In this document: one piece after another, positions 218-16,008 of the stretch
Numbering within the stretch: position 1 is the stretch's first letter
Layout: each line of letters opens with the position of its first letter
DNA from: Pseudomonas sp. Teo4
GTDB taxonomy: Bacteria; Pseudomonadota; Gammaproteobacteria; Pseudomonadales; Pseudomonadaceae
DNA: 64,000 nt
Direction of reading: 5' to 3'
NCBI RefSeq assembly: GCF_034387475.1
Contig: NZ_JAXCIL010000001.1
Location: 682,001 to 746,000 of the forward strand
Translations under genes and position numbers: made by a program
Notes under the pieces: generated by a model
What the model was told of the DNA's origin: nothing
Databases searched by the model: none
What the model saw: the letters and a program-made list of their open reading frames with translations, nothing else

Positions 218-1207
218 TCAGGGCACCAACCGAGCCACCCACTTGCCGCCCAGGCACCCATCCTTCAACTGCTGTAACGCCTGGGGCAGCGCCTCGAAGT
301 CGAAACTACGTCGTTGCGGTGACACCAACCGACCATCGGCCACCGCTTGCATCAGTTGCTCGCCCGCCACGCGCAACGCCTGGCGGTCCAGCACGCGGCC
401 ATGGGCATGAATGCTGTTCAGCGCCACTTCATGCAACGAGATCGCGGTGCTGAATGCAGCCAGTGGTGCGCTTTCCTGGCGGTCCTGGATACACACCAGA
501 TGGCCGTTGTAGCCGAGCAGGTGGGCGAGGCTGGCGGCATGGGCGCCACTGACGGTATCGAACAGCGCATGCAGCGGGCGTTCGCCCAGGGCTGCCTGCA
601 AACGGGCCTGCCAATCGCTGGCCTGGTAGCCGAACACCTCGATCACACCCAGTGCCTTGAGCGCGGCGTGATGGCGCTGGCCGGCCGTGGCCCAGACCCT
701 CAAGCCCCGTTGCACGGCCAACTGCGCAACATACCAAGCGACTGCTCCGCCTGCGCCGATCACCAGCACGTCGCGGCTGGCGCCGTCCGGCACCTTGGCC
801 AAGGCCTGCCAGGCGGTGAGGGCCGGGCAGGGCACGGCGGCGGCAGCGCTGTCGTCGAGGTTGGCCGGCAGTTGCATCAGCAGGTAGGCGTCCACCAGGC
901 AGTACTCGGCAAAACTGCCATCGCGCGACAGCGACTGGTGGTAGGCCACTCGAGTGCCGAGGGGCACATCCACGCCGTCGCCAACTGCCGCAACCACACC
1001 CACGCCGTCGACGCCCGGCACGGTGCCTTCCCGCCAGTCAGGGTGGCCCCATTCGCAGATCTTCCAGTCGACCGGGTTGAGGGCGATGGCACGGTTGGCG
1101 ACCAGCACTTCGCCGGGGCCGGGGGTGGGTAGAGGCTTGCGTACCAGTTGCAAGCCTTCGAGGCCGGCGCCTGGGGTCCAGGCCCAGGCGTTGTAGTCGT
1201 GGGACAT
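218..1207 (-). CDS. zinc-independent MDR alcohol dehydrogenase / quinone oxidoreductase-like
   Basis: The protein is 329 aa and has the medium-chain dehydrogenase fold. It has an N-terminal GroES-like part (PGPGEVLV, ALNPVDWKI, PGVDGVGVV), then a Rossmann core (VIGAGGAVAWYVAQLA) at about residues 150-165. The cysteine ligands of the structural zinc loop are not visible, which points to the quinone reductase/zeta-crystallin branch that uses NADPH on quinones or enones. The ATG at 1205-1207 has an AAGGAAA ribosome site upstream. It follows the MHS transporter gene by 112 bp on the same strand, so it could be read with that operon, although the gap leaves room for its own promoter. The substrate is not predictable. 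Confidence 0.85.
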   Translation of the reverse strand: MSHDYNAWAWTPGAGLEGLQLVRKPLPTPGPGEVLVANRAIALNPVDWKICEWGHPDWREGTVPGVDGVGVVAAVGDGVDVPLGTRVAYHQSLSRDGSFAEYCLVDAYLLMQLPANLDDSAAAAVPCPALTAWQALAKVPDGASRDVLVIGAGGAVAWYVAQLAVQRGLRVWATAGQRHHAALKALGVIEVFGYQASDWQARLQAALGERPLHALFDTVSGAHAASLAHLLGYNGHLVCIQDRQESAPLAAFSTAISLHEVALNSIHAHGRVLDRQALRVAGEQLMQAVADGRLVSPQRRSFDFEALPQALQQLKDGCLGGKWVARLVP

Positions 1208-1319
1208 GAAGGTTTCCTTGAGGGCGGGTTTGCCTGGAGGCTAAAGGATCGCGGCAGGGCGAAACAGGCGCCGCCAGGCCAAACTGTGGTGAATCCAGGT
1301 CACAGGCGTTTTTCGCGCC

Positions 1320-2627
1320 TCACACCTGGTCGATCGGTACCCCGTGGTTGTTCTTCCACAACAGCACCACTGCGCTGGCAATGACCGCGACCACGATCAG
1401 GTAGACGTTGAACATCCAGCCGATCTGCTCGGAGTACAGCCAGGTGGTCAGGTACGAGGCCGTGCCGCCGAACACCGCCACCCCCAGCGAGATGCACACG
1501 CCGAACATACGGGTGCGGTAGCGGGTGGGGATCTGCTCGGAAATGGACGCCGGCTTGCACCCGGTGATGAACGCCACCAGCATCAGGCCGGCGGTCTGCG
1601 CCACCATCAGCGTCCACGGCTCGCTCGAGATCATGCCCCACAGCGGGAACAGCGTTGCGGCGATCCCCAGCAGCGAAATCAGTGCGCAGACCTTGCGCCC
1701 CCAATGGTCCGACAGCCAGCCGCATACCGGCAGGAAGGCCAGGTAGATCACCTGGGCGACACAACTCATCATGAACGCGCTATGCGGGTCCATGCCCTTG
1801 ACGCTCATGGCGTAGATCGACGCCGAGGTCACCCAGGTGTAGTAGGTCAGGGTCGCGCCGGCTTCGTACAGGAACAGCCGCACGCCATGCTGCAGCACCT
1901 GAGCACGGCTCCACGGTGCCTGCTGCGTCGCGGTGCTGGCGCTGGGGCTGTGCTCGCTTTCCATCATGTTGCGCCGTAGCCACAGGGCGAAGACTGCCAG
2001 CAGGCCGCCGGTGGCGAAGGGGATGCGCCAGCCCCATTGCTGCATTTCTTCGGTGCTCAGCAGCGAGGTCAGCAGGGCCATGTAGAAGGTCGCCAGCAAC
2101 GAGCCACTGCCCACTGCGAAGAACACGGTGCTCGACCACAGCCCTCGACGTTTCGGCGGGGCGATTTCGGCGATGTAGGCATAGGAGGTAGTCGTTTCGC
2201 CGCCATGGGCGAAGCCTTGGATCAGCCTTGCTGCAAGCAGTAGTGCCGAAGCCCAGCTACCAATGGCTTCGAAAGACGGGATGAAGGCGATGAGCAGGCT
2301 GGCGCCGGCCATCAGCAGCATGGTGCTGAGCAACACAGTGCGCCGCCCCAGGCGGTCGGCCAGGATACCGAACACGATACCGCCCAACGGCCGCAGCAGA
2401 AAACCTGCGGCAAACACGGCAAGGGTGGCGAGCAGTGCCGAGGTTGGGTTGCTCTTGTCGAACAGGGCGGCGGCGATATAGACGGAGGCGACGGTATAGA
2501 GGGTCCAGTCGAACCACTCCAGCAGGTTGCCGATGCCGGTGGCGAGCAGCGATTTACGGCGCAGGTTGGTTGCGCCTGGGGTGGCGTGGGCCGCGCTGGC
2601 GGGCAGGGTCTCGGTCATATTGTTCAT
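1320..2627 (-). CDS. MFS transporter, metabolite:H+ symporter (MHS) type
   Basis: The protein is 435 aa with about 12 hydrophobic segments and the MHS hallmarks. These are GNLLEWFDW at the first helix, the loop 2-3 signature GILADRLGRRTVL at about residue 85, and RLIQGFAHGGE at about residue 135. The family (KgtP, ShiA, PcaT, ProP) imports organic acids, shikimate or osmolytes with protons across the inner membrane. It is the last gene of the gldA-like/transketolase unit, 65 bp after the transketolase C gene. That position suggests it imports the substrate of the pathway. The start at 2627 has a GGAG upstream. Confidence 0.9.
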   Translation of the reverse strand: MNNMTETLPASAAHATPGATNLRRKSLLATGIGNLLEWFDWTLYTVASVYIAAALFDKSNPTSALLATLAVFAAGFLLRPLGGIVFGILADRLGRRTVLLSTMLLMAGASLLIAFIPSFEAIGSWASALLLAARLIQGFAHGGETTTSYAYIAEIAPPKRRGLWSSTVFFAVGSGSLLATFYMALLTSLLSTEEMQQWGWRIPFATGGLLAVFALWLRRNMMESEHSPSASTATQQAPWSRAQVLQHGVRLFLYEAGATLTYYTWVTSASIYAMSVKGMDPHSAFMMSCVAQVIYLAFLPVCGWLSDHWGRKVCALISLLGIAATLFPLWGMISSEPWTLMVAQTAGLMLVAFITGCKPASISEQIPTRYRTRMFGVCISLGVAVFGGTASYLTTWLYSEQIGWMFNVYLIVVAVIASAVVLLWKNNHGVPIDQV

Positions 2628-2692
2628 TGTTAGGCTCCGAGCGGAAGAGGCGGGCAGCGCCGGAGTTGGCGCTGCCCGTACGGCGTAACGGG

Positions 2693-3673
2693 TCAGCTCG
2701 CCATGTGCGCGCGGGCGACTTCTTCGATACCGGCGGCATCGAGCTTGTAGTGCTGGTACAGGTGGGTAGGCGGAGCGATCAGGCTGTACTCGTCGTAGAT
2801 GCCATGGCGCTTGAGCTTCACCCCGACGCCTTCGTCGGCCAGCACCTCGGCCACCGCCGCGCCCAGGCCGCCGAGCACGTTGTGCTCTTCCACCGTCATC
2901 ATTCGCTTGCTGCGCGCTGCAGCGGCCAGAATCGCCTCGCGGTCGATCGGCTTGATCGAGGCCATGTCGATCACACCCACCGAGCGGCCCTCGGCATTGA
3001 GCTTGCGTGCCGCTTCCAGCGCCGGGTGCACGGTGATGCCACAGGCGATGATGGTCAGTTCTTCACCCTGGCAGTGCTCGGTGGCCTTGCCGAACTCGAA
3101 GGTGGCGCCGTGTTCGTAGATGATCGGGTCGCGGCCGCGACCAATGCGGAAGTACACCGGCTTGTCGTAGGTGGCCGAGGCCTTGATGGCCGCCACCAGT
3201 TGCGGGCCGTCGGACGGCGAGACCACCGCCAGGTCGGCGATCGAGCGCATGGTGGCGATGTCTTCGGTGGCATGGTGCGAGGTGCCATAGAAACCCAGCG
3301 AGATGCCGGTGTGGTGGCCGATCAGGCGCACTGGCTGGGCTGAGTAGGCCACGTCCATGCGGATCTGCTCGCAGCACAGCAGGCCCAGGAACGAGGCGAA
3401 GGTGGCCACGAACGGCATCACACCGCAAGTGGCCAGGCCGGCGGCGGCAGTGACCATGTTCTGCTCGGAGATGCCGAACTGGATATAGCGGTCGGGGAAC
3501 GCCGTGGCGAACTTGTTCAGGCCGTTGGAGTACTGCAGGTCGGCGGAGCCGGCCATGACCGGGTAGCCTTCGCGGGTCAGCTCGATCAGCCCATCGGAAA
3601 GGTACGACAGGCCAGGGTTCATGGCATTCAGGCCACGGTATTGCCAGGAGTTGGGGGACAGGGGGGCGTTCAT
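2693..3673 (-). CDS. transketolase, C-terminal (Pyr/C) subunit
   Basis: The protein is 326 aa and carries the pyrimidine-binding and C-terminal domains of transketolase. FGISEQNM at about residues 66-72 holds the catalytic glutamate (E70) that activates the thiamine aminopyrimidine. An HHTGISLG-type loop follows, and the C-terminal domain has the VEEHNVLGGLG stretch. The PP domain is encoded by the next gene upstream, only 2 bp away, so the two products should form one split enzyme. Split transketolases move a ketol group between sugars. Pseudomonas has a full-length TktA elsewhere for central metabolism, so this copy is probably pathway-specific. The start at 3673 has AAGGAGA upstream. Confidence 0.92.
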   Translation of the reverse strand: MNAPLSPNSWQYRGLNAMNPGLSYLSDGLIELTREGYPVMAGSADLQYSNGLNKFATAFPDRYIQFGISEQNMVTAAAGLATCGVMPFVATFASFLGLLCCEQIRMDVAYSAQPVRLIGHHTGISLGFYGTSHHATEDIATMRSIADLAVVSPSDGPQLVAAIKASATYDKPVYFRIGRGRDPIIYEHGATFEFGKATEHCQGEELTIIACGITVHPALEAARKLNAEGRSVGVIDMASIKPIDREAILAAAARSKRMMTVEEHNVLGGLGAAVAEVLADEGVGVKLKRHGIYDEYSLIAPPTHLYQHYKLDAAGIEEVARAHMAS

Positions 3674-3675
3674 GG

Positions 3676-4563
3676 TCAGATCTCCTTGGCTTCGATTTCA
3701 GCGATGGCGCGTTGCGCGTCTTCCGGGTCCAGGTAGCCCAGGTGCCAACCCGGCTCGGTCTCCATGTAGGAAACGCCCTTGCCCTTGACGGTCTTGGCGA
3801 TGATGCACACCGGCTTGTCGCGGTTTTCGTCGGCCTTGATGCGGCGCAGGGTGGTGGCCACCTCGCGGATGTCATGGCCATCGATCACATGGACCTCCCA
3901 GCCGAAGGCACGCCATTTTTCATCCAGCGGTTCGATGCCGATCACATCGTCGACCTCGCCGTCGAGCTGGAAGCCGTTGCGGTCGACGATGGCGATCAGG
4001 TGGCTGGCCTTGTGGTGGGCCGCGCTCATGGCCGCTTCCCAGACCTGGCCTTCCTGCATCTCGCCGTCACCGAGCATGACGAACACGTCGTAGCTGTGGC
4101 CGGTGAAGCGCTGCGCCAGGCACATGCCCAGGCCGCCGGACAGGGCGTGGCCGATGGAGCCGGACGAGAAATCGATGCCCGGCACCTTGCGCATGTCCGG
4201 GTGGTCGCCCAGTGGGCTACCCAGGCGGGTGTAGTCGTCCAGCCAGTCCTTGGGGAACATGCCAAGGTCGGCCAGGATCGGGAACTGGCCGACGGCGGCG
4301 TGCCCCTTGCCCATCAGGAAACGGTCGCGCTCCGGCCACTTGGGGTCTTCCGGGCGCAGGCTCATGACGTCGTAGTACAACGCCGAGAACAGCTCGGCGG
4401 CAGAAAACACCGAGGTGTAGTGGCCGGTCTTGGCGATCTCGATCAGGCGGATGGTTTCCAGCCGGACGAATTTCGCCCGTTCGCGCAGGTGGGCGACGGT
4501 CTCGGCGCTGGGCACGAAGTCGCTGGCTTTCCAAGCCTCGAGGGTTTTACGGGGTGTAGGCAT
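3676..4563 (-). CDS. transketolase, N-terminal (TPP-binding) subunit
   Basis: The protein is 295 aa and carries the thiamine diphosphate and metal-binding PP domain. The motif is GDGEMQEG at about residues 165-172, followed after the usual spacing by DRNGFQLDG at about 195, with GSIGHALSGGLG before it. The ATG at 4563 was chosen because GGAGGT lies 5 bases ahead of it. A longer reading from TTG at 4575 would bury that ribosome site. It lies between the gldA-like gene (48 bp upstream) and the C-subunit gene (2 bp downstream) in one operon. The substrate is unknown; a ketose made by the GldA-like dehydrogenase is a reasonable guess. Confidence 0.92.
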   Translation of the reverse strand: MPTPRKTLEAWKASDFVPSAETVAHLRERAKFVRLETIRLIEIAKTGHYTSVFSAAELFSALYYDVMSLRPEDPKWPERDRFLMGKGHAAVGQFPILADLGMFPKDWLDDYTRLGSPLGDHPDMRKVPGIDFSSGSIGHALSGGLGMCLAQRFTGHSYDVFVMLGDGEMQEGQVWEAAMSAAHHKASHLIAIVDRNGFQLDGEVDDVIGIEPLDEKWRAFGWEVHVIDGHDIREVATTLRRIKADENRDKPVCIIAKTVKGKGVSYMETEPGWHLGYLDPEDAQRAIAEIEAKEI

Positions 4564-4611
4564 CTCTACCTCCAAATGCAGGCATCGCAGGGTGGGTGTT
4601 GCCAGGGGAAT

Positions 4612-5703
4612 TCAGCGGGTCAGTGATTCCAGCGCGCGCATGGCCTCGATCAGGTCATCGCACTGCAGGGGCTGGCCGTTGGCTCGCAGGAAGTTGCGCG
4701 CATGGGGGGCTTGCAGGGTCGGCTCGGCGATCTGCTGCAAGGTGGCCTGGTCGGGCGCGTTCAGGCCTAGCTCGGCCAGGTTGCAGGGCAGGCCGATGCG
4801 CCGGTAGAAGGCCAGCAACTCGGCCATGAACGCTGCCTCGCGGTCTTCCAGCACCAGCTGCACCAGCAGGCCATAGGCGACTTGCCAGCCGTGAACCTGG
4901 TCGCGGGCGCCCGGCACCTTGGACAAGCCACGGGTCATGGCGTGGGCGATGGACAGCCCGCCGCTCTCGAAGCCCAGGCCGCTCATCAGCAGCACGGCTT
5001 CGATCAGGCGCTCGAAGGCGGCGTTCACCTGGCCGCTGCCGGCCAGCGCCAAGCCTTCCTCGGCGTGTTCGCGCAGCACGGCATAGCATTCCCGAGCCAG
5101 GGTCACGCCGGCCAGCGAGGGGCGGGCACCGAACATGTTGACGCCGCCAGCCTTCTGGCACTGCTCGGCTTCGAACTTCTTGGTCAGGGCGTCGGCGATG
5201 CCGGCCAGCAGGAAGGGGCGGGGGGCCTGGGCAATCAGGCGGGTGTCGACCAGCACGTAGCGTGGGCTGCTGAGCAGGTGGCCGACTTCGCTGAGCTGGT
5301 GATGCTCGTCGTAGACCACGAAATTCTTGGAAGTAGGGGCGTCGTTGGAAGCCACCGTGGGCATGCTCACCAAGGCGGCGCCGGATGAGTGGGCCAAGGC
5401 CTTGCCGGCATCGATGGACTTGCCGCCACCCACCGCCACCACCATGTCGAAGGCAAAGCGCGCGGCGGACTGGCGCAGGGCGGCGATGCCCTGGGCGGTG
5501 ATCTCGCCATCGAAAGTGATGTAGTGCAATTGCACATCGGCGCGGGCACAGGTGGCGTCCAGGCGTTCCTTGACCAGGCCGATCACGAAGCTGTCGATGA
5601 CCACCACGGCGCGGCGGCCGCAGTGGGCCAGGTACTGGCCTGCCTCATCAAGTACATCGGGGCCTTGCACGTAGCGGCCGGGTGATCCGAAAACCAGATT
5701 CAT
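4612..5703 (-). CDS. glycerol dehydrogenase-family metal-dependent dehydrogenase
   Basis: The protein is 363 aa and belongs to the GldA/iron-containing dehydrogenase superfamily, which also includes dehydroquinate synthase. GGGKSID at residues 92-98 is the NAD-binding loop, and PTVASNDAPTS follows at about 115. The metal ligands are intact: D171 in GIADALTKKFEA, H254 in SIAHAMTRGL and H271 in QVHGWQVAYG. The family oxidises vicinal diols or polyols to ketones. It is the first gene of the operon with the split transketolase and MHS transporter, and a perfect palindrome lies 68 bp upstream of its ATG. An AGAGG ribosome site precedes 5703. Glycerol itself is an unlikely substrate in this context. 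Confidence 0.85.
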   Translation of the reverse strand: MNLVFGSPGRYVQGPDVLDEAGQYLAHCGRRAVVVIDSFVIGLVKERLDATCARADVQLHYITFDGEITAQGIAALRQSAARFAFDMVVAVGGGKSIDAGKALAHSSGAALVSMPTVASNDAPTSKNFVVYDEHHQLSEVGHLLSSPRYVLVDTRLIAQAPRPFLLAGIADALTKKFEAEQCQKAGGVNMFGARPSLAGVTLARECYAVLREHAEEGLALAGSGQVNAAFERLIEAVLLMSGLGFESGGLSIAHAMTRGLSKVPGARDQVHGWQVAYGLLVQLVLEDREAAFMAELLAFYRRIGLPCNLAELGLNAPDQATLQQIAEPTLQAPHARNFLRANGQPLQCDDLIEAMRALESLTR

Positions 5704-5770
5704 ACGGTACCTCTGTGTGACGGTTTGTTGTTGTTATGCGAGGTCGTGGGCGATCTCGGTCATGTGTGAT

Positions 5771-5786
5771 GCATGATATATCATGC
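5771..5786. promoter_or_regulatory. 16-bp perfect palindrome, candidate GntR/FCD operator
   Basis: GCATGATATATCATGC is a perfect 16-bp palindrome in the 147-bp gap upstream of the gldA-like gene. Its core ATGATATATCAT recurs at 7474-7485 and, with one mismatch, at 7531-7542 beside the FCD regulator gene. FCD-type GntR proteins bind short palindromes of this size, so control of the operon by the regulator at 7606 is inferred. Confidence 0.75.
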
Positions 5787-5850
5787 GTGTTGGCCGTCAA
5801 GCGCCTTCACCGTTTCCCTGACGGCCATCGATCGGTTCAGGGGGGGCAAA

Positions 5851-6543
5851 TCAGGCGATGGAGTAACCACCGTCCACCGCCAGGGTGGTGCCGGTGACGT
5901 AGCGGGCGTTGTCGGAAACCAGGAAGGCAATCACGTCGGCGACGTCCTCCGGCTGCCCCCAGGCCTGCATCGGTATGCGCGAGAGAATCCCGGCCGAGCG
6001 GCTTGGGTCTTCAAAGGCGCGGCGTGACAGCTGGGTGAGGATCCAGCCCGGTGCCACGGCGTTGGCACGCACGCCATCGGCGGCCCAGGCCACCGCCTGG
6101 CAGCGGGTCAGCTCGCCGATGGCGGCCTTGCTCGAGGCGTAGGCGGGCGTCTTGGCCGAGCCGAAGATGCCCCACATCGAGGCAAAGTTGACCACCGCAC
6201 CACGGGCCCGTTTGAGCCCCGGCAGCGCAGCGTTGCTGATGCGCATCACGGCAGTCAGGTTGACGTCGAGCACACGACTGAAGCCCTCCAGCTGCCACTC
6301 GCGTTGATGGTCGATGACCCCGGCGGCATTGACCAGGGCATCGATCCGCTCGAAGCGGCCGAAGAAATCCGCCACTGCCCCATCGTTGGTGACGTCCAGC
6401 TCCTGGTAATGAATGCCTTCGACACGCTGTTCAGGTTCGCCCAGGCCCAGGGTGTGAACTTCATGGCCATCGGCGAGCAGGCGGCGTGCGGTGGCCAGGC
6501 CGATGCCCGAGCCACCGCCGGTGATGATTGCAATCTTGTTCAT
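5851..6543 (-). CDS. short-chain dehydrogenase/reductase (SDR)
   Basis: The protein is 230 aa, a classical SDR. TGGGSGIG at residues 8-15 binds the dinucleotide and NAAG lies near residue 72. The catalytic residues are S122, Y135 and K139 (YASSK). The C-terminal GGYSIA is typical. The start at 6543 (MNKIAIITGG) was chosen because the longer open frame runs through the aroE-like gene in another frame. It lies 35 bp downstream of the AroE-like gene on the same strand and probably shares its transcript. It should oxidise a hydroxyl or reduce a keto group with NAD(P). The substrate is unknown. Confidence 0.9.
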   Translation of the reverse strand: MNKIAIITGGGSGIGLATARRLLADGHEVHTLGLGEPEQRVEGIHYQELDVTNDGAVADFFGRFERIDALVNAAGVIDHQREWQLEGFSRVLDVNLTAVMRISNAALPGLKRARGAVVNFASMWGIFGSAKTPAYASSKAAIGELTRCQAVAWAADGVRANAVAPGWILTQLSRRAFEDPSRSAGILSRIPMQAWGQPEDVADVIAFLVSDNARYVTGTTLAVDGGYSIA

Positions 6544-6578
6544 GAGTTGCTCCGTTGGGAAAAAACGCAATTCGGTTT

Positions 6579-7382
6579 TCAGTGTTCCTTGGCCGCGCCG
6601 AACAGGAAGTCGGCCAGCAGTTCGACCTGCCCGGTGATCATGTGCACGCCCTTGTGGATCTGGCAGCCACGGCCTTGGGCCGCTTCCAGCAGGGCGGTGA
6701 CATCCGGGTTCATCACCACCTCGGCGACCAGTGCTCCGCTGTCGAGCGTGTGCGCTGGCAGCGGCAACGGGTCGTCGGTCTTCAGCCCCAGCGCCGTGGC
6801 ATTGATCACCACATCGAAGCCACGGCCATCCGCCGGGCCTGCTGCCACCTGTCGCCCAGGCAGCAACGTGCGCAACTGGGCAGCCAGTTCCTCGGCCTTG
6901 GCCTGGGAACGGTTGGCGATGACCAGGCGCTCCAGTGGCTCGGCCAGCAGCGCATGGGCGATTCCCGTGGCGGCGCCACCGGCACCGAGCAGCAGCACGC
7001 GTTTGCCGGCCAGCGAGTGGCCCTGGTTCTTCAGGCCGCGGACAAAGCCCTCGCCATCGAACATGCGCCCGCTGAAGCGGCCGTCGGGCAGGCGTCGGGC
7101 GACGTTGCACACCCCAAGCGACGCCGCTACGCCTTGCAGTTCGTCGCACAGTTCGGCGACTTCCAGTTTGTGCGGCACGGTGACGATCACCCCGGCGAGG
7201 TTTTCGATGCCGCGCAGGCCGGCCCAGGCGTTGGCCAGGTTGGCAGGCGACACCTCCCAGGGCACCAGCACGCCGTCATGGCCCAGGCGTTCGAGCAGCG
7301 GGTTGAAGAAGGAAGGGGTACGCAGGTGTTTGGCCGGGTAGGTCAGATGAACCACCACCCGGGTGGTGCCGGTGATTGGCAT
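6579..7382 (-). CDS. AroE-like shikimate/quinate dehydrogenase family protein
   Basis: The protein is 267 aa with the shikimate dehydrogenase fold. The catalytic lysine K72 lies in VTVPHK, the aspartate D109 in the position of the NTD motif (here MFDGEG), and GAGGAA at 133-138 binds the cofactor. ANRSQAK after the next strand favours NADP. The N-terminal S-x-S carboxylate-binding motif of true AroE is missing: the equivalent stretch reads LTYPAKHLRTP. It sits in a catabolic locus rather than with aro genes, so a role on a cyclitol or other hydroxylated ring or chain is more likely than aromatic amino acid synthesis. The ATG at 7382 follows AGGAAG. Confidence 0.85.
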   Translation of the reverse strand: MPITGTTRVVVHLTYPAKHLRTPSFFNPLLERLGHDGVLVPWEVSPANLANAWAGLRGIENLAGVIVTVPHKLEVAELCDELQGVAASLGVCNVARRLPDGRFSGRMFDGEGFVRGLKNQGHSLAGKRVLLLGAGGAATGIAHALLAEPLERLVIANRSQAKAEELAAQLRTLLPGRQVAAGPADGRGFDVVINATALGLKTDDPLPLPAHTLDSGALVAEVVMNPDVTALLEAAQGRGCQIHKGVHMITGQVELLADFLFGAAKEH

Positions 7383-7473
7383 GATGGGCTTCCTATGACG
7401 TGGGTAAGGCGTCAGCGGCGATGACGGGGTGTTGCGTGCTCGGGGTGAGCGTCATCAGTCGTTGGCGTAAAAT

Positions 7474-7485
7474 ATGATATATCAT
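7474..7485. promoter_or_regulatory. ATGATATATCAT palindrome, candidate operator
   Basis: This perfect 12-bp palindrome lies 89 bp upstream of the AroE-like start codon (7382) in the divergent promoter region with the FCD regulator. It is identical to the core of the 5771-5786 site. Repression of the aroE-like/SDR unit by the neighbouring GntR protein is inferred. Confidence 0.75.
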
Positions 7486-7530
7486 GTTTTTACTTGGCAC
7501 TAAAACCCCTGAGCTACCGAGACCGTCATG

Positions 7531-7542
7531 ATGATGTATCAT
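7531..7542. promoter_or_regulatory. ATGATGTATCAT, imperfect third operator copy
   Basis: This 12-bp site differs from the other two palindromes at one central base. It lies 63 bp upstream of the GTG start of the FCD regulator, which suggests autoregulation. An in-frame ATG inside this site could be mistaken for the regulator start, but the ribosome site near 7593-7600 argues against that. Confidence 0.65.
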
Positions 7543-7605
7543 GCCTTCTCGCCCAGCCGCGCCCCGGCAGGTGCCGGGCCATTCACCAGACAAGAGAGAA
7601 TCAGC

Positions 7606-8289
7606 GTGACAGTTCACAAGCCGCTGGATAAAGGCAACCTGAGCGAGCGGGTCTACAGCATCATCCGCACCGCATTGATGGACGGCCAGTACCAACCTGG
7701 GGACCGCCTGCGCATCAGTGCCCTGGCCGAAGAGTTCGGCGTGTCGATCACTCCGGTGCGCGAAGCGATCTTCCGCCTGGTCAGCGACCATGCGCTGGAC
7801 ATGAAAGCCGCCACCTCCATCTATGTCCCCGAACTGACCGTCAACCAGTTGCGCGAGATCCAGCTGATCCGCCACTTGCTTGAGGGCGAAGCTGCGGGCC
7901 TTGCGGCCGAGCGCATCTCCGAAGCCGAACTGGCCCACCTCGAAGAAGTGCAGGCTGCGTTCCAGGCGGCGGTCAGCGTCGACTACAAGAAGGCTTCGTT
8001 GCTCAACCGCGAGTTTCATTTCGGCCTGATCGCTGCGGCGCGCATGCCGGTGGTGTTCAAGACCCTGGAAAACATGTGGGTGATGATGGGGCCGCTGCTC
8101 AGCACCTTCCACGCCGAAGTGCCCAAGGCCGAACTGGCCAGCGCCAAGCACAAGCACTTCGAAGTGCTTGAGGCATTGCGCAAGCGCGACTCGGCCAAGG
8201 CCAAGGCTGCGTTGCAAGCCGACATCGCCTGGGGCGAGCTGATGCTGGAGTGGCTGGAGCGCAAGTCCATGGCGACGACCTCGGCTTGA
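7606..8289 (+). CDS. GntR family regulator, FCD (FadR C-terminal) subfamily
   Basis: The protein is 227 aa. A winged helix lies at about residues 12-70, with GDRLRISALAEEFGVS and the recognition helix SITPVREAIFRL. An all-helical FCD ligand and metal domain follows from about residue 78 to 215, with HLLEGEAAGLAAE, NREFHFGLIAAA and the KHFEVLEALRKRD helix. The GTG at 7606 was chosen for the AGAGAGAA ribosome site just ahead. An in-frame ATG at 7528 would place the coding start inside a probable operator. It is divergent from the aroE-like/SDR unit and is probably a substrate-responsive repressor of both catabolic units. Confidence 0.9.
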   Translation: MTVHKPLDKGNLSERVYSIIRTALMDGQYQPGDRLRISALAEEFGVSITPVREAIFRLVSDHALDMKAATSIYVPELTVNQLREIQLIRHLLEGEAAGLAAERISEAELAHLEEVQAAFQAAVSVDYKKASLLNREFHFGLIAAARMPVVFKTLENMWVMMGPLLSTFHAEVPKAELASAKHKHFEVLEALRKRDSAKAKAALQADIAWGELMLEWLERKSMATTSA

Positions 8290-8293
8290 GTGT

Positions 8294-9502
8294 TCACACG
8301 CTCGGCGCGACGCTGGCCGATACCGGGTGCCGGGCACGCCACACCAGCCAGGCCAGCGGCAGGTGCACCAGCACGGCGGCGACCACCCCGGCCCATGGGG
8401 TAAGGGCCAGTTGCCCATGGGTGACCAGGTAGCTGCCCGCCGTCTCGCCCAGGGTGATTCCCAGGTTGAAGGCCGAAATGTTCAGGCCTGATGCGAAGTC
8501 GACGGCCCTTGGGGCATAGCGCCCGGCGGTGTCGAGCATGCCGGCCTGGAAGCCTGGGGTCATGCCGAAGGCCAGCACGCCCCAGATGAACAGCAGCACC
8601 ACCATCGCTATCGGGGATGTCAGCGACAGCCCCAGCAGCACCAATGTCGCGGCCAGCAGCACGAACAGCAGGCGCAGTGCACGTTGCCAGCCCATGCGGT
8701 CGGCCAGACGCCCACCAGCCAGGTTACCGAGCAGCGTGGCCAGGCCGAACACCACCAGCAGGCTGCTGGCCGTGGCCGAGGAGAAACCGGTGATGTCGGT
8801 GAGGATCGGGGTGATGAAGGTGAAGGCGGCGAAACTTGCGCCGAACCCGAGAATGGTCACCAGCATCATCGACCAGATGGCCGGTTGCCCCAATGCAGCC
8901 AGTTGCGTGCGAATGTTGCCCGCTTCACCGCTTTGCAGTGCAGGCAGCCAGAACAGGGTCGCCAGCAAGGCCAGGGCGCTGAGGGCGGCCACGGCGTAGA
9001 ACGGCAGGCGCCAGCCAAGGGCATTGCCGAGGAAGCTGCCCAGCGGTACGCCGATCACCATGGCCAGGGTCAACCCCGCGAACATGATGGCGATGGCCTT
9101 GCTGGCTTGGCCCCTGGGGGCCAGGCTGGCTGCCACCGTGGCGCCGATAGCGAAGAAACTGCCGTGGGCGACGGCGGTAATCAGACGGCCCACCAGCAAG
9201 GTGGTGTAGTCGCTGGACAGTGCCGAGAGCAGGTTGCCGGCCAGAAACACCGCGACCAGCCCAAGCAACACCGGCTTGCGTGGCAGGCGCCCCAGCAGCA
9301 GGACGATGAACGGGGTGAAGATCGCCAGTGCCAGGGCGTACAGGCCGACCAGGCCGCCAGCAGTGGCCAGGCTCACGCCAAGGTCGCTGGAAATCGACGG
9401 CAGGATGCCGACCACGATGAACTCGGCCACGCCGATGGCGAAGGCCGTCAGAGCCAGCACGTAGATCCCAGGATGGATACGTGTGGAGGTGGGGGTAGTC
9501 AT
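8294..9502 (-). CDS. MFS transporter, DHA1 drug/sugar efflux type
   Basis: The protein is about 402 aa with 12 hydrophobic segments. It resembles the AraJ/PbuE/YdhP-like exporters of the DHA1 family, with TAFAIGVAEFIVVGILP in helix 1, PFIVLLLGRLPRKPV in the 2-3 loop and FFAIGATVAASLAP in helix 4. The start at 9502 (MTTPTSTRIHP) is preferred over an upstream ATG at 9580, which would extend into the operator region. It is divergent from a LysR gene that probably controls it. It converges with the GntR gene, with stop codons 5 bp apart. The substrate is unknown. Confidence 0.88.
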   Translation of the reverse strand: MTTPTSTRIHPGIYVLALTAFAIGVAEFIVVGILPSISSDLGVSLATAGGLVGLYALALAIFTPFIVLLLGRLPRKPVLLGLVAVFLAGNLLSALSSDYTTLLVGRLITAVAHGSFFAIGATVAASLAPRGQASKAIAIMFAGLTLAMVIGVPLGSFLGNALGWRLPFYAVAALSALALLATLFWLPALQSGEAGNIRTQLAALGQPAIWSMMLVTILGFGASFAAFTFITPILTDITGFSSATASSLLVVFGLATLLGNLAGGRLADRMGWQRALRLLFVLLAATLVLLGLSLTSPIAMVVLLFIWGVLAFGMTPGFQAGMLDTAGRYAPRAVDFASGLNISAFNLGITLGETAGSYLVTHGQLALTPWAGVVAAVLVHLPLAWLVWRARHPVSASVAPSV

Positions 9503-10557: not shown

Positions 10558-10648
10558 GCCACCAAGGGGAGCCCGGCAACGGGCTGAGAAACCGCTGGCG
10601 CGGTGACCCTTCGAACCTGATCCGGATCATGCCGGCGAAGGGATGGGA
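10558..10648 (+). ncRNA. TPP riboswitch (THI element)
   Basis: The conserved core elements are present in order: GGGGAGCCC, GGGCTGAGA, ACCCTTCGAACCTGATC, CGGATCATGCCGGCGAAGGGA. The P2 arm (GCCC/GGGC), the J2/3 CTGAGA and the P4/P5 CTGATCCGGATCATGCCGGCG match the THI element. A short P1 closes with CCA/TGG. It lies about 91 bp ahead of the first tenA start. TPP binding probably lowers expression of the tenA pair, most likely at translation initiation as in other Proteobacteria; the mechanism is inferred. Confidence 0.95.
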
Positions 10649-10738
10649 CTGCCGACCTACCTTTTTGCCGGCCTCACTGCGAGGCCAGTCCATGCATCAC
10701 CTCAACGGTCTCGCTGTCAGCCTAGAAAGGACAGCACC

Positions 10739-11386
10739 ATGACCGAACGCTTCAACGCCACCCTGCGCCGCCAGAGCGAGCCGACCTGGTCCGCCGCCGT
10801 TGGCCACCGCTTCGTCACCCAATTGTGCGACGGCAGCCTGCCGGACCCGGTGATGGTCCGCTACCTGGTGCAGGACCACCGCTTCCTCGACAGCTTCCTG
10901 ACCTTGCTCGGTGCCGCCATCGCCACTGCCGACACCTTCGAAGCGCGCCTGCGGTTCGGGCGTTTCGCCGGCATGATCAGCAGCGATGAAAACACCTATT
11001 TCCTGCGCGCTTTCGAAGCCCTGGACGTCAGCCCCGAGCAGCGCCAGGCGCCGCCCGACACCGTGCCCACCGCAGGCTTCAAGGCGATCATGCGCGAAGC
11101 CGCCGCCACCCGTTCGTACGCCGCCGCGCTGGCGGTGCTCAATGTCGCCGAAGGCCTGTACCTGGACTGGGCGCTCAAGGCACCCAAGCCGCTGCCAGCC
11201 AACTTCGTCCATGCCGAGTGGATCACCCTGCACGACAACCCAGCGTTCAGTGACTTTGTCGCTTTCCTGCAAGCCGAACTGGACCGGGTCGGCCCGCAGG
11301 AGGCAGCGCTGGCCACCGATTTCTACCTGCGCACCGTCGCGCTGGAGCTGGCCTTCTTCGAGGCCGTGTATGAGGAACAACAATGA
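10739..11386 (+). CDS. tenA: TenA family protein, glutamate (TenA_E) type
   Basis: The protein is 215 aa and belongs to the TenA/thiaminase II fold. The conserved aspartate D46 is in YLVQDHRFLDSF. The active-site cysteine of TenA_C proteins is absent, and E138 in LNVAEGLYLDWA matches the TenA_E subclass. TenA_E enzymes salvage thiamine breakdown products, probably hydrolysing formylaminopyrimidine species. The ATG at 10739 has AAAGGAC upstream; a longer frame from 10643 would start inside the riboswitch. It overlaps the second tenA by 4 bp (ATGA), so the two are translationally coupled. Confidence 0.9.
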   Translation: MTERFNATLRRQSEPTWSAAVGHRFVTQLCDGSLPDPVMVRYLVQDHRFLDSFLTLLGAAIATADTFEARLRFGRFAGMISSDENTYFLRAFEALDVSPEQRQAPPDTVPTAGFKAIMREAAATRSYAAALAVLNVAEGLYLDWALKAPKPLPANFVHAEWITLHDNPAFSDFVAFLQAELDRVGPQEAALATDFYLRTVALELAFFEAVYEEQQ

Positions 11387-12051
11387 GTCTGGATATCTTC
11401 GACCGCCTCAAGGCAGCCGCGCTGCCTGAGTGGAACAGCTACGTCGACCACGCCTTCGTACGTCAGATGGGCGAGGGCACCCTGTCGGAAAGCGCCTTCC
11501 GTACCTACCTGGTGCAGGACTACCTGTTCCTCATCCAGTTCGCCCGCGCCTGGGCGCTGGCCGCTTATAAAAGCCGTCGACCCAGCGATATTCGCGCTGC
11601 CCAGGCCGGGTTGGCGGCGATTCTCGATGAAACCGACCTGCATGTGCGCCTGTGCGCCCGCTGGGGCCTGAGCCAGGCCGACATCGAAGCGGCACCGGAG
11701 CACCAGGCGACGGTGGCCTACACCCGTTTCGTGCTGGACTGCGGTGCGGCGGGCGACCTGCTCGACCTGCACGTGGCGCTGGCGCCCTGCGTGATTGGTT
11801 ATGCGGAAATCGGCAGCCGGTTGGCCGGCGGCATCAGCGACATGGCCAACCACCCGTACCGTGAGTGGATTGGCGAGTACGCGGGTGAGGGGTATCAGGG
11901 GGTGGCGCAGGCGGCGCGCAAACACCTGGACGAGCTGGCTGCACGCAGCATGACCGAGCAGCGTTTCACGGAGCTGGCGGCGATCTTTGCCCAGGCTTCG
12001 CGGTTGGAAGCGGACTTCTGGCAGATGGGGCTGGACGGCGCTGCCAAGTAG
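11383..12051 (+). CDS. tenA: TenA family aminopyrimidine aminohydrolase, cysteine (TenA_C) type
   Basis: The protein is 222 aa. D46 in YLVQDYLFLIQFARAW and the catalytic C136 in LAPCVIGYAEIG are both present, as in Bacillus TenA (C135). The enzyme converts 4-amino-5-aminomethyl-2-methylpyrimidine to the hydroxymethyl form (HMP) for thiamine salvage. It starts inside the end of the TenA_E gene, under the same riboswitch. The two proteins may act in sequence, with the E type releasing aminomethylpyrimidine and the C type deaminating it; this is known for related pairs but inferred here. Confidence 0.93.
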   Translation: MSLDIFDRLKAAALPEWNSYVDHAFVRQMGEGTLSESAFRTYLVQDYLFLIQFARAWALAAYKSRRPSDIRAAQAGLAAILDETDLHVRLCARWGLSQADIEAAPEHQATVAYTRFVLDCGAAGDLLDLHVALAPCVIGYAEIGSRLAGGISDMANHPYREWIGEYAGEGYQGVAQAARKHLDELAARSMTEQRFTELAAIFAQASRLEADFWQMGLDGAAK

Positions 12052-12802: not shown

Positions 12803-15706
12803 TCAGAGCTCCTGGCGCTGGTTGTCGGGGTCGAAGAAGGGCAGTTGCACCACCTGGGCATTGACCATCACGCCGCCCTCCACGCGGATCGGGATGTGCA
12901 TGCCAGGGGTGGCCTGGTGCGCGCCAGCGTAAGCCAGGCCGATGATCTGCCCCAGGGTCTGGGAGTATTCGCAGGAGGTGACGTTGCCGCTGATGTCCGG
13001 CCCGTCCAGCACCAGGTGGCCTTCCAGCGGTTGGGGGCTGCCTTGGGGCAGGGTGAAGCCGACCAATTTGCGCTTGAGTGGCTGCGCTTCGAGAATTTCG
13101 ATGGAGCGTTTGCCGACGAAGAACGGCTTCTTGCGGCCAATCGCCCATTGCATGTCGATCTCGGCCGGGTGGGTCATGCCGTCGGTGTCCTGGCTGATGA
13201 TCACATGGCCTTTTTCCAGGCGCAGCAGGCGTTGGGTCTCGACACCGAACGGGCGAATGCCCAGCCCCGCGCCGGCCTGCATCAAGGCGTCCCACAGGCG
13301 TTCGGCATGGCGGGCCGGGACGTGTACCTCGTAGCCCAGCTCACCGACGAAACCGACCCGCAGGATGCGCGCCGGGATGCCGGCCACCGTGCCCAGGCGC
13401 ACGCCCAGGTAAGGGAAGGCCTCGGCCGACAGCTCGACGTCGTCGCACACTTTGGCCAGCACCTGGCGCGACAGCGGGCCGGCCAGGTTCACCGCGGCCA
13501 GCGCGGCGGTGACGTTGGTGATGTCCACGTCCAGGCGCCATTGCGCGTTCCACTTGAGCATCTGCTGATAGATACGGTCCACGCCGCTGGTGGTGGCGGT
13601 GACGTAGAAGTGCTGGTCGGCCAGGCGCGCACACACGCCATCGTCGATCACTACGCCGTGTTCGTTGGTCATCAGTGCATAACGGGTACGGCCGACAGGC
13701 AGCTTGGCAAAGCCGAAGGTATAGAGCCGTTCGAGCAGCTCGGCAGCGTCGGGGCCGCGCACATCCAGGCCGCCAAGGGTGGATACGTCGATCAGGCCGA
13801 CCTTCTCGCGCACGTGGCGGGCTTCTGCCTGCATGCAGTGCTCACGTTGCTCCGGCTTGCCGTAGTACGCCGGGCGCTGCCAGATACCGGCGGGCATCAT
13901 CTTCGCCCCGGCTTCCAGGTGGCGGCGGTGCATGGGCGTCTGGCGGTAGGGGTCGAAGGCGCGGCCTGCAACGTGGGCCAGCTTTTCCGCCTGGAAGGGG
14001 GGGCGAGCCGTGGTCACGCCGGTTTCGCTGATGCTGCGGCCCGTGGCCTGGGCCACCAGACGGGCGGTGGGCAGCGCCGAGTGGCGGCCTTGGGACGGGC
14101 CCATGCCGACCGTGGAGAAACGCTTGACCAGCTGTACATCGCGGTAGCCGCTGCGGGTCGCGTTGACGATGTCACGCACTTGCAGGTCTTCGTCGAAGTC
14201 GACGAAATCCTTGCCCTTGGGGTGAGGGAAGATCGGCCACGGGAAGTTGACCTTGGCCTCGGCGACGAAGGCCGGCAGCACTGGGGCTGGCAGGCCCAGC
14301 GCGGCCAGGGCCTCGGCGGCGCCGCGGGAGGCATCGGTCAGCACGTTGTCCAGATGATGACGGCCATTCACCGAGCCTGCGATATCCAATCCAGCTGGCA
14401 GCTGGCTGATGGCGAACTCGTCACGGTTCACGTCATAGGCCAGCTTGCCGCCGGCCTGGCACAGCAACTGGTACACCGGCATGTAGCCCGCCGACATGCA
14501 CAACAGGTCGCACGACAGACGCAGGCCGTGGTCGCCCACTTTGCCCTGGCCGATGATGGGGCGAATGTCCACGCCGCTGACATGGCGCATGCCGGCTTCG
14601 TGCAGCGCTTCGTATACCGTGCTGCCTAGGTGCACGGGGATATCGCGGCGCTTGAGTTCGGCCGCCAGCGCGGCATCGGCGGGGGCGGCGCGCATGTCCA
14701 CCAGGGCGGCGACGGCCACGCCTTGCTCCTGCAGGTCGAGGGCGGCCAGGTAGCCATCGTCGTGGCCAGTGAGGATCACCGCACGCTGGCCCGGCTTGAC
14801 CGCGTAGAGCTTCATCAGCCGTTGGGCCGCACTGGTCAGCATCACCCCGGGCAGGTCATTGTTGCGGAACACCACCGGCTGGTCGAACGAGCCTGCGGCC
14901 ACCAGGCAACGGGTGGCGCGCACCTTGTACATGCGCTTGTGCTGGATCACCGGCAGGTAGTGGTCGGTGAACCAACCGTTGCAAGTGGCTTCCAACAGCA
15001 CCTGAATGTTCGGGTGGCCTTCGACCGCGGCCAGCAGCTCCCGGCGCAGGTTGGCGGCACGGGTGCCGGCGATGTCGAAACGGGCATAGGTGAGCGAGCC
15101 GCCGAGCACCGGTTGCTGCTCGATCAACAGCACCTTGGCCCCGGCGTTGGCGGCGTCCAGCGCAGCACGGAGCCCGGCCGGGCCGCCGCCGATGACGGCG
15201 ACGTCGACGAATAGGTATGCCTTGTCGTAGTACTGCGGCCTGAAGCTCTGGTCGAGCACGCCGAGCCCGGCCTTCTTGCGAATCAGCGGCTCCCAGACTT
15301 TCCACATGCCTTTGGGCTTGTAGAACGAACGGTAGTAGAAGCCCACCGGCATGAAGCGCGAGAACTTGCCAAGGTAGGCATCGCGGTCGTTGTCCAGGCT
15401 GCCATTGAAGTTCTGGCCTTCGACCACCTGGCCATCCTGGGCGGCTTGCATGTCGGCCAGCACATTGGGCTCGTCGGGCAGTTGCACCAGGGTGTTGGCG
15501 TCCTGTCCGGCCAGGCTCAGCGGGCCGCGCGGGCGGTGGTACTTGAACGAGCGCGACAGCAGCCAGCGGCCGTTGCCGAGCAGGGCGCTGGCGATGCTGT
15601 CGCCGGCAAAGCCCGGGTAGGTCTGGCCGTCGAAGGTAAAGCGCAGGGGCCGCTCGCGGTCGATCAGCAGGCCCATGGGCGCGGGGAGGCGAGTGAGGCT
15701 GTTCAT
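12803..15706 (-). CDS. soxA: heterotetrameric sarcosine oxidase-like, alpha subunit
   Basis: The protein is 967 aa. The N-terminal part has a 2Fe-2S-ferredoxin-like fold without cluster cysteines (FTFDGQTYPGFAGDSIASALL). A dinucleotide-binding domain follows at about residue 175 (VAVIGGGPAGLRAALDAANAG), then NAD- and linker regions. A C-terminal GcvT/aminomethyltransferase half starts at about residue 580 and binds tetrahydrofolate. The THF half captures the methyl carbon released by the beta subunit as methylene-THF. The ATG at 15706 overlaps soxD by 4 bp; a longer open frame to 15901 would run through soxD and is rejected. The true N-methyl substrate is uncertain. Confidence 0.9.
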   Translation of the reverse strand: MNSLTRLPAPMGLLIDRERPLRFTFDGQTYPGFAGDSIASALLGNGRWLLSRSFKYHRPRGPLSLAGQDANTLVQLPDEPNVLADMQAAQDGQVVEGQNFNGSLDNDRDAYLGKFSRFMPVGFYYRSFYKPKGMWKVWEPLIRKKAGLGVLDQSFRPQYYDKAYLFVDVAVIGGGPAGLRAALDAANAGAKVLLIEQQPVLGGSLTYARFDIAGTRAANLRRELLAAVEGHPNIQVLLEATCNGWFTDHYLPVIQHKRMYKVRATRCLVAAGSFDQPVVFRNNDLPGVMLTSAAQRLMKLYAVKPGQRAVILTGHDDGYLAALDLQEQGVAVAALVDMRAAPADAALAAELKRRDIPVHLGSTVYEALHEAGMRHVSGVDIRPIIGQGKVGDHGLRLSCDLLCMSAGYMPVYQLLCQAGGKLAYDVNRDEFAISQLPAGLDIAGSVNGRHHLDNVLTDASRGAAEALAALGLPAPVLPAFVAEAKVNFPWPIFPHPKGKDFVDFDEDLQVRDIVNATRSGYRDVQLVKRFSTVGMGPSQGRHSALPTARLVAQATGRSISETGVTTARPPFQAEKLAHVAGRAFDPYRQTPMHRRHLEAGAKMMPAGIWQRPAYYGKPEQREHCMQAEARHVREKVGLIDVSTLGGLDVRGPDAAELLERLYTFGFAKLPVGRTRYALMTNEHGVVIDDGVCARLADQHFYVTATTSGVDRIYQQMLKWNAQWRLDVDITNVTAALAAVNLAGPLSRQVLAKVCDDVELSAEAFPYLGVRLGTVAGIPARILRVGFVGELGYEVHVPARHAERLWDALMQAGAGLGIRPFGVETQRLLRLEKGHVIISQDTDGMTHPAEIDMQWAIGRKKPFFVGKRSIEILEAQPLKRKLVGFTLPQGSPQPLEGHLVLDGPDISGNVTSCEYSQTLGQIIGLAYAGAHQATPGMHIPIRVEGGVMVNAQVVQLPFFDPDNQRQEL

Positions 15707-16008
15707 CCTGCGATCTCCGGGGTGGCGGTGGGGGCGAAGTCGATGCGGCGGTCGAACACTTCTTTGGGGTCGAAGGTGCGCAGTACCTGGTCGCTGACGG
15801 TGTGGCGCTCGGCCAGGAACCAGTAGCTGGAGGCGTTGTGCAGCCACCACTCGACCACCACCCCGGCATGGTTGTCGCTGTTGAACACGTAGTCGGCCCA
15901 TTCGGCGTCGCTGCAGTTGCGCGGGTCGGGCATGTGCTTGAACTCGCCGCCGTAGGTGAATTCGCTGATGTTGCGCGGGCCGTTCAAGGGGCAGGTCAGG
16001 ATCTTCAT
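15703..16008 (-). CDS. soxD: heterotetrameric sarcosine oxidase-like, delta subunit with degraded zinc site
   Basis: The protein is 101 aa. SoxD normally binds zinc through an N-terminal CxxC and an HxxxC further on. Here C6 is kept but the second cysteine is N9 (TCPLNGPRN). H57 is kept but the last ligand is S61 (LHNASSYWF). The rest of the SoxD pattern is present (EWADYVFNSDNHAG, VLRTFDPKEVFD). It lies between soxB (10 bp gap) and soxA (4 bp overlap). The loss suggests a divergent tetrameric demethylase rather than a textbook sarcosine oxidase. Confidence 0.88.
   Translation of the reverse strand: MKILTCPLNGPRNISEFTYGGEFKHMPDPRNCSDAEWADYVFNSDNHAGVVVEWWLHNASSYWFLAERHTVSDQVLRTFDPKEVFDRRIDFAPTATPEIAG

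Follow-up and report, generated by a model that had tools for sequence, protein, structure and literature searches.

Does the gene cluster at 1320-8289 of a 64,000-nucleotide stretch of Pseudomonas sp. Teo4 (hereafter the window) encode a single catabolic pathway, and if so, what would that pathway do? Seven genes had been described there in the original prediction, among them a transketolase split into an N part (TKN) and a C part (TKC), a GldA-like polyol dehydrogenase, a short-chain dehydrogenase/reductase (SDR), an AroE-like enzyme, an importer of the MHS (metabolite:H+ symporter) family and an FCD-type regulator.

With slightly better than even confidence, these genes are read here as part of an FCD-controlled catabolic regulon addressed through the palindrome ATGATATATCAT, in which an unphosphorylated polyol or sugar would be converted to a ketose and a two-carbon (C2) unit would be removed from it by the split transketolase. 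This reading is built on a conserved gene set, a shared operator-like palindrome, a two-operon layout and residue changes in the enzymes, all of them features of the sequence.

Conservation of the gene set

Reading frames and family scans confirmed the seven genes within 1320..8289 on the strands originally given to them. Orthologues of the AroE-like protein (71% identity or more) were found in 9 of 398 genomes of the genus, the window's own included, and orthologues of TKC (91% or more) in the same nine, with the order AroE-SDR-GldA-TKN-TKC-MHS preserved in every one. Because only 9 of 398 genomes carry it, the set is rare and patchy within the genus. Unlinked genes in close relatives had originally been named as a sign against a single pathway; the shared nine genomes and the kept order spoke for it instead.

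Rearranged co-occurrence was observed outside the genus, in Rhizobium, Agrobacterium, Shinella, Sinorhizobium, Ensifer, Paracoccus, Gemmobacter, Cupriavidus and Paraburkholderia. Most of these loci, Cupriavidus L160 excepted, also contain genes for a CUT2 sugar importer and a GMC oxidoreductase. Where alphaproteobacterial loci had full flanks, an aldehyde dehydrogenase (ALDH) and an MDR-type reductase were present too, and some loci carry a second iron-containing alcohol dehydrogenase (Fe-ADH) or a GabD-type ALDH.

At phylum level (E up to 1e-90), TKN was found in 2 of 398 genomes, one being the window's own, and TKC in 1 of 385 genomes of the class of G615. Since the transketolase genes are this rare, a wider survey was drawn from plasmid records and from contigs matched by the AroE-like protein, the latter limited to the best 80 of 356 matches. 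It yielded 39 loci, a non-random sample in which 16 entered via the AroE-like protein or the window and 23 via the transketolase in plasmid records, these 23 being our choice from 33 plasmid-derived records with near-duplicates excluded. The duplicates L149, L042, L044 and L153 and loci under 12 kb were kept out of the 39, and eleven extra Pseudomonas loci (L197-L207) were not counted among them. The 73 control loci were picked by an AroE-like gene and include L043, the detached ABC/GMC/AroE locus of a core-bearing genome.

GldA, FCD and AroE-like genes were present at 26, 28 and 24 of the 39 transketolase loci, respectively, as against 0, 0 and 7 of the 73 controls; the AroE-like count is inflated because 16 loci had entered via the AroE-like protein or the window. 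In the 23 transketolase-picked loci alone, the counts were 10 for GldA, 18 for FCD, 8 for AroE-like, 9 for GabD-type ALDH and 10 for aminotransferases. GabD-type ALDH genes occurred at 11 of 39 transketolase loci and 3 of 73 control loci.

As judged from this conservation, the gene set forms one system. A literature search, with most subscription journals outside its reach, returned no paper on the set, which matches no named pathway found and is apparently undescribed. Support was thus found for the original view that a single pathway answers to one regulator, combines polyol-type dehydrogenases with a split transketolase and fits no named route.

A shared operator-like palindrome

Counted with its one-mismatch form, ATGATATATCAT occurs three times in the window, where 0.01 copies are expected, and none of 100 shuffled windows reached three copies. 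The sites lie before two divergent units (FCD; AroE-SDR) and before the GldA-TKN-TKC-MHS(-MDR) run. It had been claimed that all the catabolic genes sit behind copies of one palindrome; the three sites are real, and they precede three transcription units rather than every gene.

Across the 21 loci with the window's gene set (type A, window included), 48 sites were found in 20 loci. The controls, 59 other palindromes with the same half-site composition, gave at most 4 sites in these loci (median 0). Each of the 48 sites stands no more than 160 bp ahead of a gene belonging to the set, and none falls inside such a gene. Assigned to downstream genes, with a site between divergent genes counted for both, they preceded GldA (18), AroE (13), ALDH (11), GMC (11), TKN (7), FCD (5), a second GldA (5), SSADH (2) and the substrate-binding protein (1). 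Conservation extends from Pseudomonas to Rhizobiaceae, and a site stands upstream of GldA in all eight other Pseudomonas loci, with a mismatch in the L051 copy. The 18 transketolase loci of other types had 2 sites between them, and the eleven extra Pseudomonas loci had none; on these sequence counts, the operator marks type A.

The window's own genome (6.5 Mb, 96% complete) contains four operator sites, three of them in the window, and one copy of the reversed control pattern. In the eight other Pseudomonas genomes, 21 of 24 sites were accounted for by the cluster, counting in one G479 site at the detached ABC/AroE locus of that genome, while the reversed pattern gave one site per genome and two in G466.

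From its position, the FCD protein is the candidate reader of ATGATATATCAT, and it would most likely act as a repressor, with the substrate or an intermediate as the releasing signal. In the long-type Pseudomonas stretches, the core has no FCD gene next to it.

Two operons and the import of the substrate

The fourth operator of the genome is exact and lies 1.74 Mb from the window (L172, G000:C1:2418500-2438000, site at 9370), ahead of the distant operon listed in Table 1. In six other Pseudomonas loci (L142-L147), the transport and oxidation module adjoins GMC-AroE with an operator between; these stretches mostly end inside the ABC genes, and the porin there was read rather than family-scanned. 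Because the module near the distant operator adjoins the core in six relatives, the system in the window's genome is regarded, from gene order, as split into two operons 1.74 Mb apart. In G479 the module forms a separate locus (L043) with its own AroE copy and operator. The original prediction described a single locus; the system as a whole lies in two pieces.

The functional unit probably exceeds 1320-8289 and adds, besides this second locus, the MDR-type reductase at 218-1207, likely the last gene of the GldA-TKN-TKC-MHS operon. Reductase orthologues (47-52% identity) adjoin SDR-GldA in alphaproteobacterial clusters, and the gene was present at 10 of 39 transketolase loci, window included, and at 0 of 73 controls. 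It is not beside MHS in the other eight Pseudomonas loci and has no operator of its own.

The sugar-binding protein of the CUT2 ABC importer was detected in eight of the nine Pseudomonas genomes; its nearest solved chains are 4ry9 and ribose-binding proteins. Together with the OprB carbohydrate porin, a CUT2-type importer suggests that the substrate is a sugar or polyol. The MHS gene, to which import had been ascribed, is found downstream of TKC in 9/9 Pseudomonas loci, and the Paraburkholderia terrae locus L124 has a copy with 68% identity. The ten alphaproteobacterial type-A loci have the CUT2 importer and no MHS gene in the stretch examined, and since these and eight of nine Pseudomonas genomes show a CUT2 importer, the symporter is not the sole route of entry and perhaps not the main one.

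Residue changes in the enzymes

The nearest solved chains of TKC and TKN are 6yaj and 6yak, the split transketolase of Carboxydothermus. In the window and 11 relatives, H26, H66, H100, D155, N185, E411 and H473 (E. coli numbering) are kept, and H261 had no placement in the alignment, which has a gap at the split. Because these thiamine diphosphate- and metal-site residues and catalytic His and Glu residues are kept, the enzyme is likely active.

The residues of a canonical sugar-phosphate transketolase (D469, R358, S385, H461 and R520) were not retained as a set. The E. coli motif GEDGPTHQ reads GFYGTSHH in the window, which places Tyr at D469, the residue that reads the 2-hydroxyl of the acceptor according to transketolase engineering work. 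Of the phosphate residues, S385, H461 and R520 are kept. R358 has no aligned counterpart because of a gap, and counting 27 residues from S385 puts a Leu at its position. All 50 distinct loci that were compared, the window among them, carry GFYGTSHH (identity at least 55%), namely 39 distinct loci (46 rows, 7 duplicates) and the eleven extra Pseudomonas loci. At the R358 position, again by spacing, Leu was read in 49 of the 50 and Phe in the Rhodococcus locus. The change of GEDGPTHQ to GFYGTSHH suggests that the substrate is altered.

The same genome encodes a second, distant split transketolase (L140, G000:C1:1906000-1925500) with 35% identity and the motif G-YGPSHQ. Its neighbours encode the large and small subunits of an aconitase-type enzyme, a MaoC-like protein, an SDR and an MFS transporter; genes for an AroE-like protein and an FAD_binding_2 flavoprotein lie some 7-8 kb away.

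In the AroE-like enzyme, equivalents of the catalytic K65 and D102 were present in 129/129 aligned sequences, window included, and at S14, S16, N59 and Y215 the window has Leu, Thr, Ile and Met, respectively. With the contacts to the carboxylate and ring of shikimate replaced, a shikimate- or quinate-type ring, as originally suggested, is unlikely to be its substrate. AroE-like genes (44-47%) flanked by a GMC oxidoreductase and an ALDH gene were also noted at L141 (G000:C1:2678000-2694000) and L150, with no transketolase in the stretch examined; this trio recurs alone.

The GldA-like enzyme passed the glycerol dehydrogenase model NF006941 (359.5 bits, cut-off 336) and missed the stricter L-1,2-propanediol/glycerol equivalog (259 against 700). 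All 11 PDB chains matched at 1e-20 carry the name glycerol dehydrogenase.

Settings of the GFYGTSHH transketolases

By setting, the 39 loci were divided into A (21), B (4), C (10) and D (2), with L162 and L163 unassigned; at L163 a GabD-type gene adjoins the transketolase. Setting A is the window's gene set. Three B loci (Bosea, Agrobacterium pusense, Jiella) contain GldA, AroE-like, SDR, enolase-family and VOC proteins; two of them also have an idonate dehydrogenase, and one of this pair a GabD-type ALDH. In the fourth, from Rhodococcus, only enolase-family, GabD-type and idonate-dehydrogenase genes were seen. Setting D combines GldA and SDR in Martelella (with a lactonase and an importer) and Paracoccus albus.

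Setting C (L126, L128, L155-L159, L161, L164 and L165) has aminotransferases, SDR and mostly a polyamine-type ABC importer, a GabD-type ALDH in three loci, and an amidase or histone-deacetylase-fold hydrolase in some; at L155, the sole locus scanned, HemL-like and omega-type aminotransferases were recognised. Its hosts are Sinorhizobium, Shinella, Agrobacterium, Pararhizobium, Mesorhizobium, Phaeobacter, Tritonibacter, Azospirillum and Variovorax, and it is apparently another undescribed catabolic set. Four of the extra Pseudomonas loci (L199, L201, L203, L206) are also of type C. The other seven (L197, L198, L200, L202, L204, L205, L207) follow a pattern E of SDR and CUT2 importer genes, and in L202 and L204 the frames were read as a luciferase-type monooxygenase and a flavin reductase. 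In G213 and G254 no more than about 25 kb separates the pattern E transketolase locus from the core cluster.

It is conceivable, and is proposed here only tentatively, that GFYGTSHH split transketolases make up a functional class of their own, sharing a non-canonical substrate and plugged, as one C2-clipping or C2-adding enzyme, into at least five catabolic modules. The modules would then be different routes to one kind of unphosphorylated hydroxyketone, or to one small aldehyde. If the GFYG transketolase does have its own substrate, a single assay would give access to several uncharacterised catabolic clusters, and the enzyme would be useful for forming or breaking C-C bonds in unphosphorylated sugars.

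Proposed pathway and alternatives

In the proposed pathway, whose substrate class, reaction order, transketolase direction and repressor role are those that we infer, an unphosphorylated polyol or rare sugar would enter through the OprB porin and the CUT2 importer of the distant operon, or else an oxidised derivative would enter via the MHS symporter. Partial oxidation of the substrate would fall to Fe-ADHs, ALDH and the GMC enzyme that many relatives have, and GldA, SDR and the AroE-fold enzyme would act on secondary alcohols to give a ketose R-CH(OH)-CO-CH2OH. The split transketolase would move the terminal C2 ketol unit to an acceptor, in the simplest case glyceraldehyde 3-phosphate, giving xylulose 5-phosphate; with this acceptor, no kinase would be needed. 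The leftover aldehyde R-CHO would be oxidised by an ALDH, possibly by the GabD-type enzyme in some relatives, in two of which (L050 and L122) the operator stands upstream of its gene.

A kinase or phosphatase in a conserved set had originally been named as a pointer to a sugar-phosphate route. Neither the window set nor the distant operon yielded a kinase, and weak pointers of this kind came from relatives, namely a HAD phosphatase near 3 of 39 loci and in L124 and a gluconokinase in an idonate-type run near L122.

Several observations weigh against the proposed pathway. Three of the four phosphate-site residues are kept, which is also compatible with a phosphorylated donor. The ABC module is dispensable, as Pseudomonas migulae (G322) has the core and lacks any match to the binding protein. 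No close GMC orthologue was found in the window's genome (best 39-42%, against 62-64% in long-type Pseudomonas loci). Three of the 24 operator-like sites in relatives lie outside the gene set, and the sole one inspected, in G322 (L236), has no panel genes around it. Only two of the five type-A loci with a nearby GabD-type ALDH show an operator before that gene, and the window's two operons have no such gene; four (56-70% identity) lie elsewhere in the genome, with no operator. Finally, the direction of the transketolase is not readable from sequence, and the substrate class is likewise a matter of interpretation.

Less probable, yet deserving attention, is a dihydroxyacetone-synthase-like role, in which C2 would pass from xylulose 5-phosphate onto formaldehyde or another aldehyde without an alpha-hydroxyl, set free by the enzymes around it, and GldA would handle dihydroxyacetone. 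The kept S385, H461 and R520, the Tyr at D469 in all 50 loci and the GldA score above the glycerol dehydrogenase cut-off are in line with it, and one transketolase type in very different settings is what would be expected for the disposal of one common small aldehyde. It fits less well with the Leu placed by spacing at R358 and with the aminotransferase and luciferase-type settings, in which GldA was not seen; no formaldehyde-releasing enzyme was recognised in type A, where no search was aimed at one. Quite improbable is a route resembling plant tartrate formation, from L-idonate via 5-keto-gluconate and, through the transketolase, tartrate semialdehyde to tartrate by a GabD-type enzyme. L-idonate-5-dehydrogenase-like and GabD-type genes do occur near the transketolase in L122, L125 and L127, and organic acids are the usual cargo of MHS symporters. 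However, no idonate dehydrogenase was found in the window set or in other Pseudomonas type-A loci (it lies near four other transketolase loci), and the 3,4-configuration of 5-keto-gluconate is, by our stereochemical reading, the ordinary one, with which a retained D469 would be expected. An engineered E. coli transketolase does act on 5-keto-gluconate, according to PMC12016104 and PMC11066805.

A cyclitol, quinate or shikimate pathway, with the AroE-like enzyme oxidising a ring carboxylate, is still harder to sustain: the fold and the conserved K65 and D102 equivalents would suit it, whereas S14, S16, N59 and Y215 are replaced and no other shikimate- or quinate-pathway family appeared among the scanned window and distant-operon proteins. 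That unrelated neighbours lie together by chance is scarcely credible, with nothing but the mixed family names in its favour and with the kept order and co-occurrence, the conserved operator and a distant operon behind the same operator contradicting it.

The findings point to an apparently undescribed pathway spread across Pseudomonas, Rhizobiaceae, Rhodobacterales and Burkholderiales. One 12-bp operator would list the regulon members genome-wide, so that the substrate could be screened for directly.

Gene layout

Coordinates are collected in Table 1. The minus-strand genes of 218-7382 are separated by intergenic gaps of 2 to 147 bp. The FCD frame probably starts at GTG 7606 rather than ATG 7528, preferred because of an AGAGAG ribosome-site-like run at 7593-7598 and because a Paracoccus relative begins nearby; the longer frame from 7528 is open in L042 too, and the choice is a matter of judgement. 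About 6 kb from the transketolase genes, two neighbouring TenA/THI-4/PqqC-family genes (10643-12051) were noted, next to a sarcosine-oxidase alpha subunit gene (12803-15901).

Table 1. Features of the window and of the distant operon.
Feature	Position	Strand	Basis or remark
MDR-type (quinone/enone-reductase-like) oxidoreductase	218..1207	-	family scans; outside the originally predicted interval
MHS-family importer, MHS-type MFS	1320..2627	-	TIGR00883, 314.6 bits, under cut-off 443
TKC, pyrimidine-binding and C domains, GFYGTSHH	2693..3673	-	PF02779, PF02780
TKN, thiamine diphosphate-binding; TKC 2 bp away	3676..4563	-	PF00456
GldA-like Fe/Zn polyol dehydrogenase (glycerol-dehydrogenase-like Fe-ADH)	4612..5703	-	NF006941
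Operator palindrome ATGATATATCAT, upstream of GldA	5773..5784	.	palindrome count
SDR oxidoreductase, 2,3-butanediol-dehydrogenase-like	5851..6543	-	adh_short_C2
AroE-fold oxidoreductase without shikimate-binding serines	6579..7382	-	Shikimate_dh_N, Shikimate_DH
Operator palindrome ATGATATATCAT, between AroE and FCD	7474..7485	.	palindrome count
Operator variant ATGATGTATCAT (one mismatch), upstream of regulator	7531..7542	.	palindrome count
GntR-family FCD-type regulator, probable GTG start	7606..8289	+	PF00392 (GntR), PF07729 (FCD)
Distant operon: GldA-like dehydrogenase, Fe-ADH, OprB porin, ALDH, binding protein, ABC ATPase, permease			behind fourth operator

Comparison with known systems

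The AroE-like enzyme matches the fold of the 5-keto-D-fructose reductase of Gluconobacter (PDB 7cok/7col) at 30% identity only, and because ordinary shikimate dehydrogenases tie with it, no function was drawn from this match. One third of its residues are identical to those of a shikimate-dehydrogenase-family protein of P. putida KT2440 (PDB 4k28), which we take to be RifI2.

The Carboxydothermus transketolase shares the two-chain architecture and carries the ordinary motif GEDGASHQ, in contrast to GFYGTSHH in the window. The apulose-4-phosphate transketolase AptA/AptB is likewise split and encoded in a sugar catabolic cluster. Its route requires a kinase, whereas none was found among the scanned window or distant-operon proteins.

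The closest parallel in reaction is SqwGH, the sulfo-TK of sulfoquinovose degradation, a split transketolase that moves C2 from a non-phosphorylated ketose to glyceraldehyde 3-phosphate, as described in PMC11659671. No isomerase family, such as the sulfoquinovose and sulfoerythrulose isomerases would represent, was found among the nine window and seven distant-operon proteins scanned. In contrast to the RAFDR head-group motif given there for SqwGH, the window keeps S and H at positions 2 and 4, with Leu by spacing at the first Arg, and in the window system polyol-type dehydrogenases accompany the cut. Both systems have a two-gene transketolase; for sulfo-TK, the same paper considers ABC import likely and has the leftover aldehyde oxidised or reduced. 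The parts of the window system come from known families, and its principle of clipping off a C2 unit is preceded by sulfo-TK.

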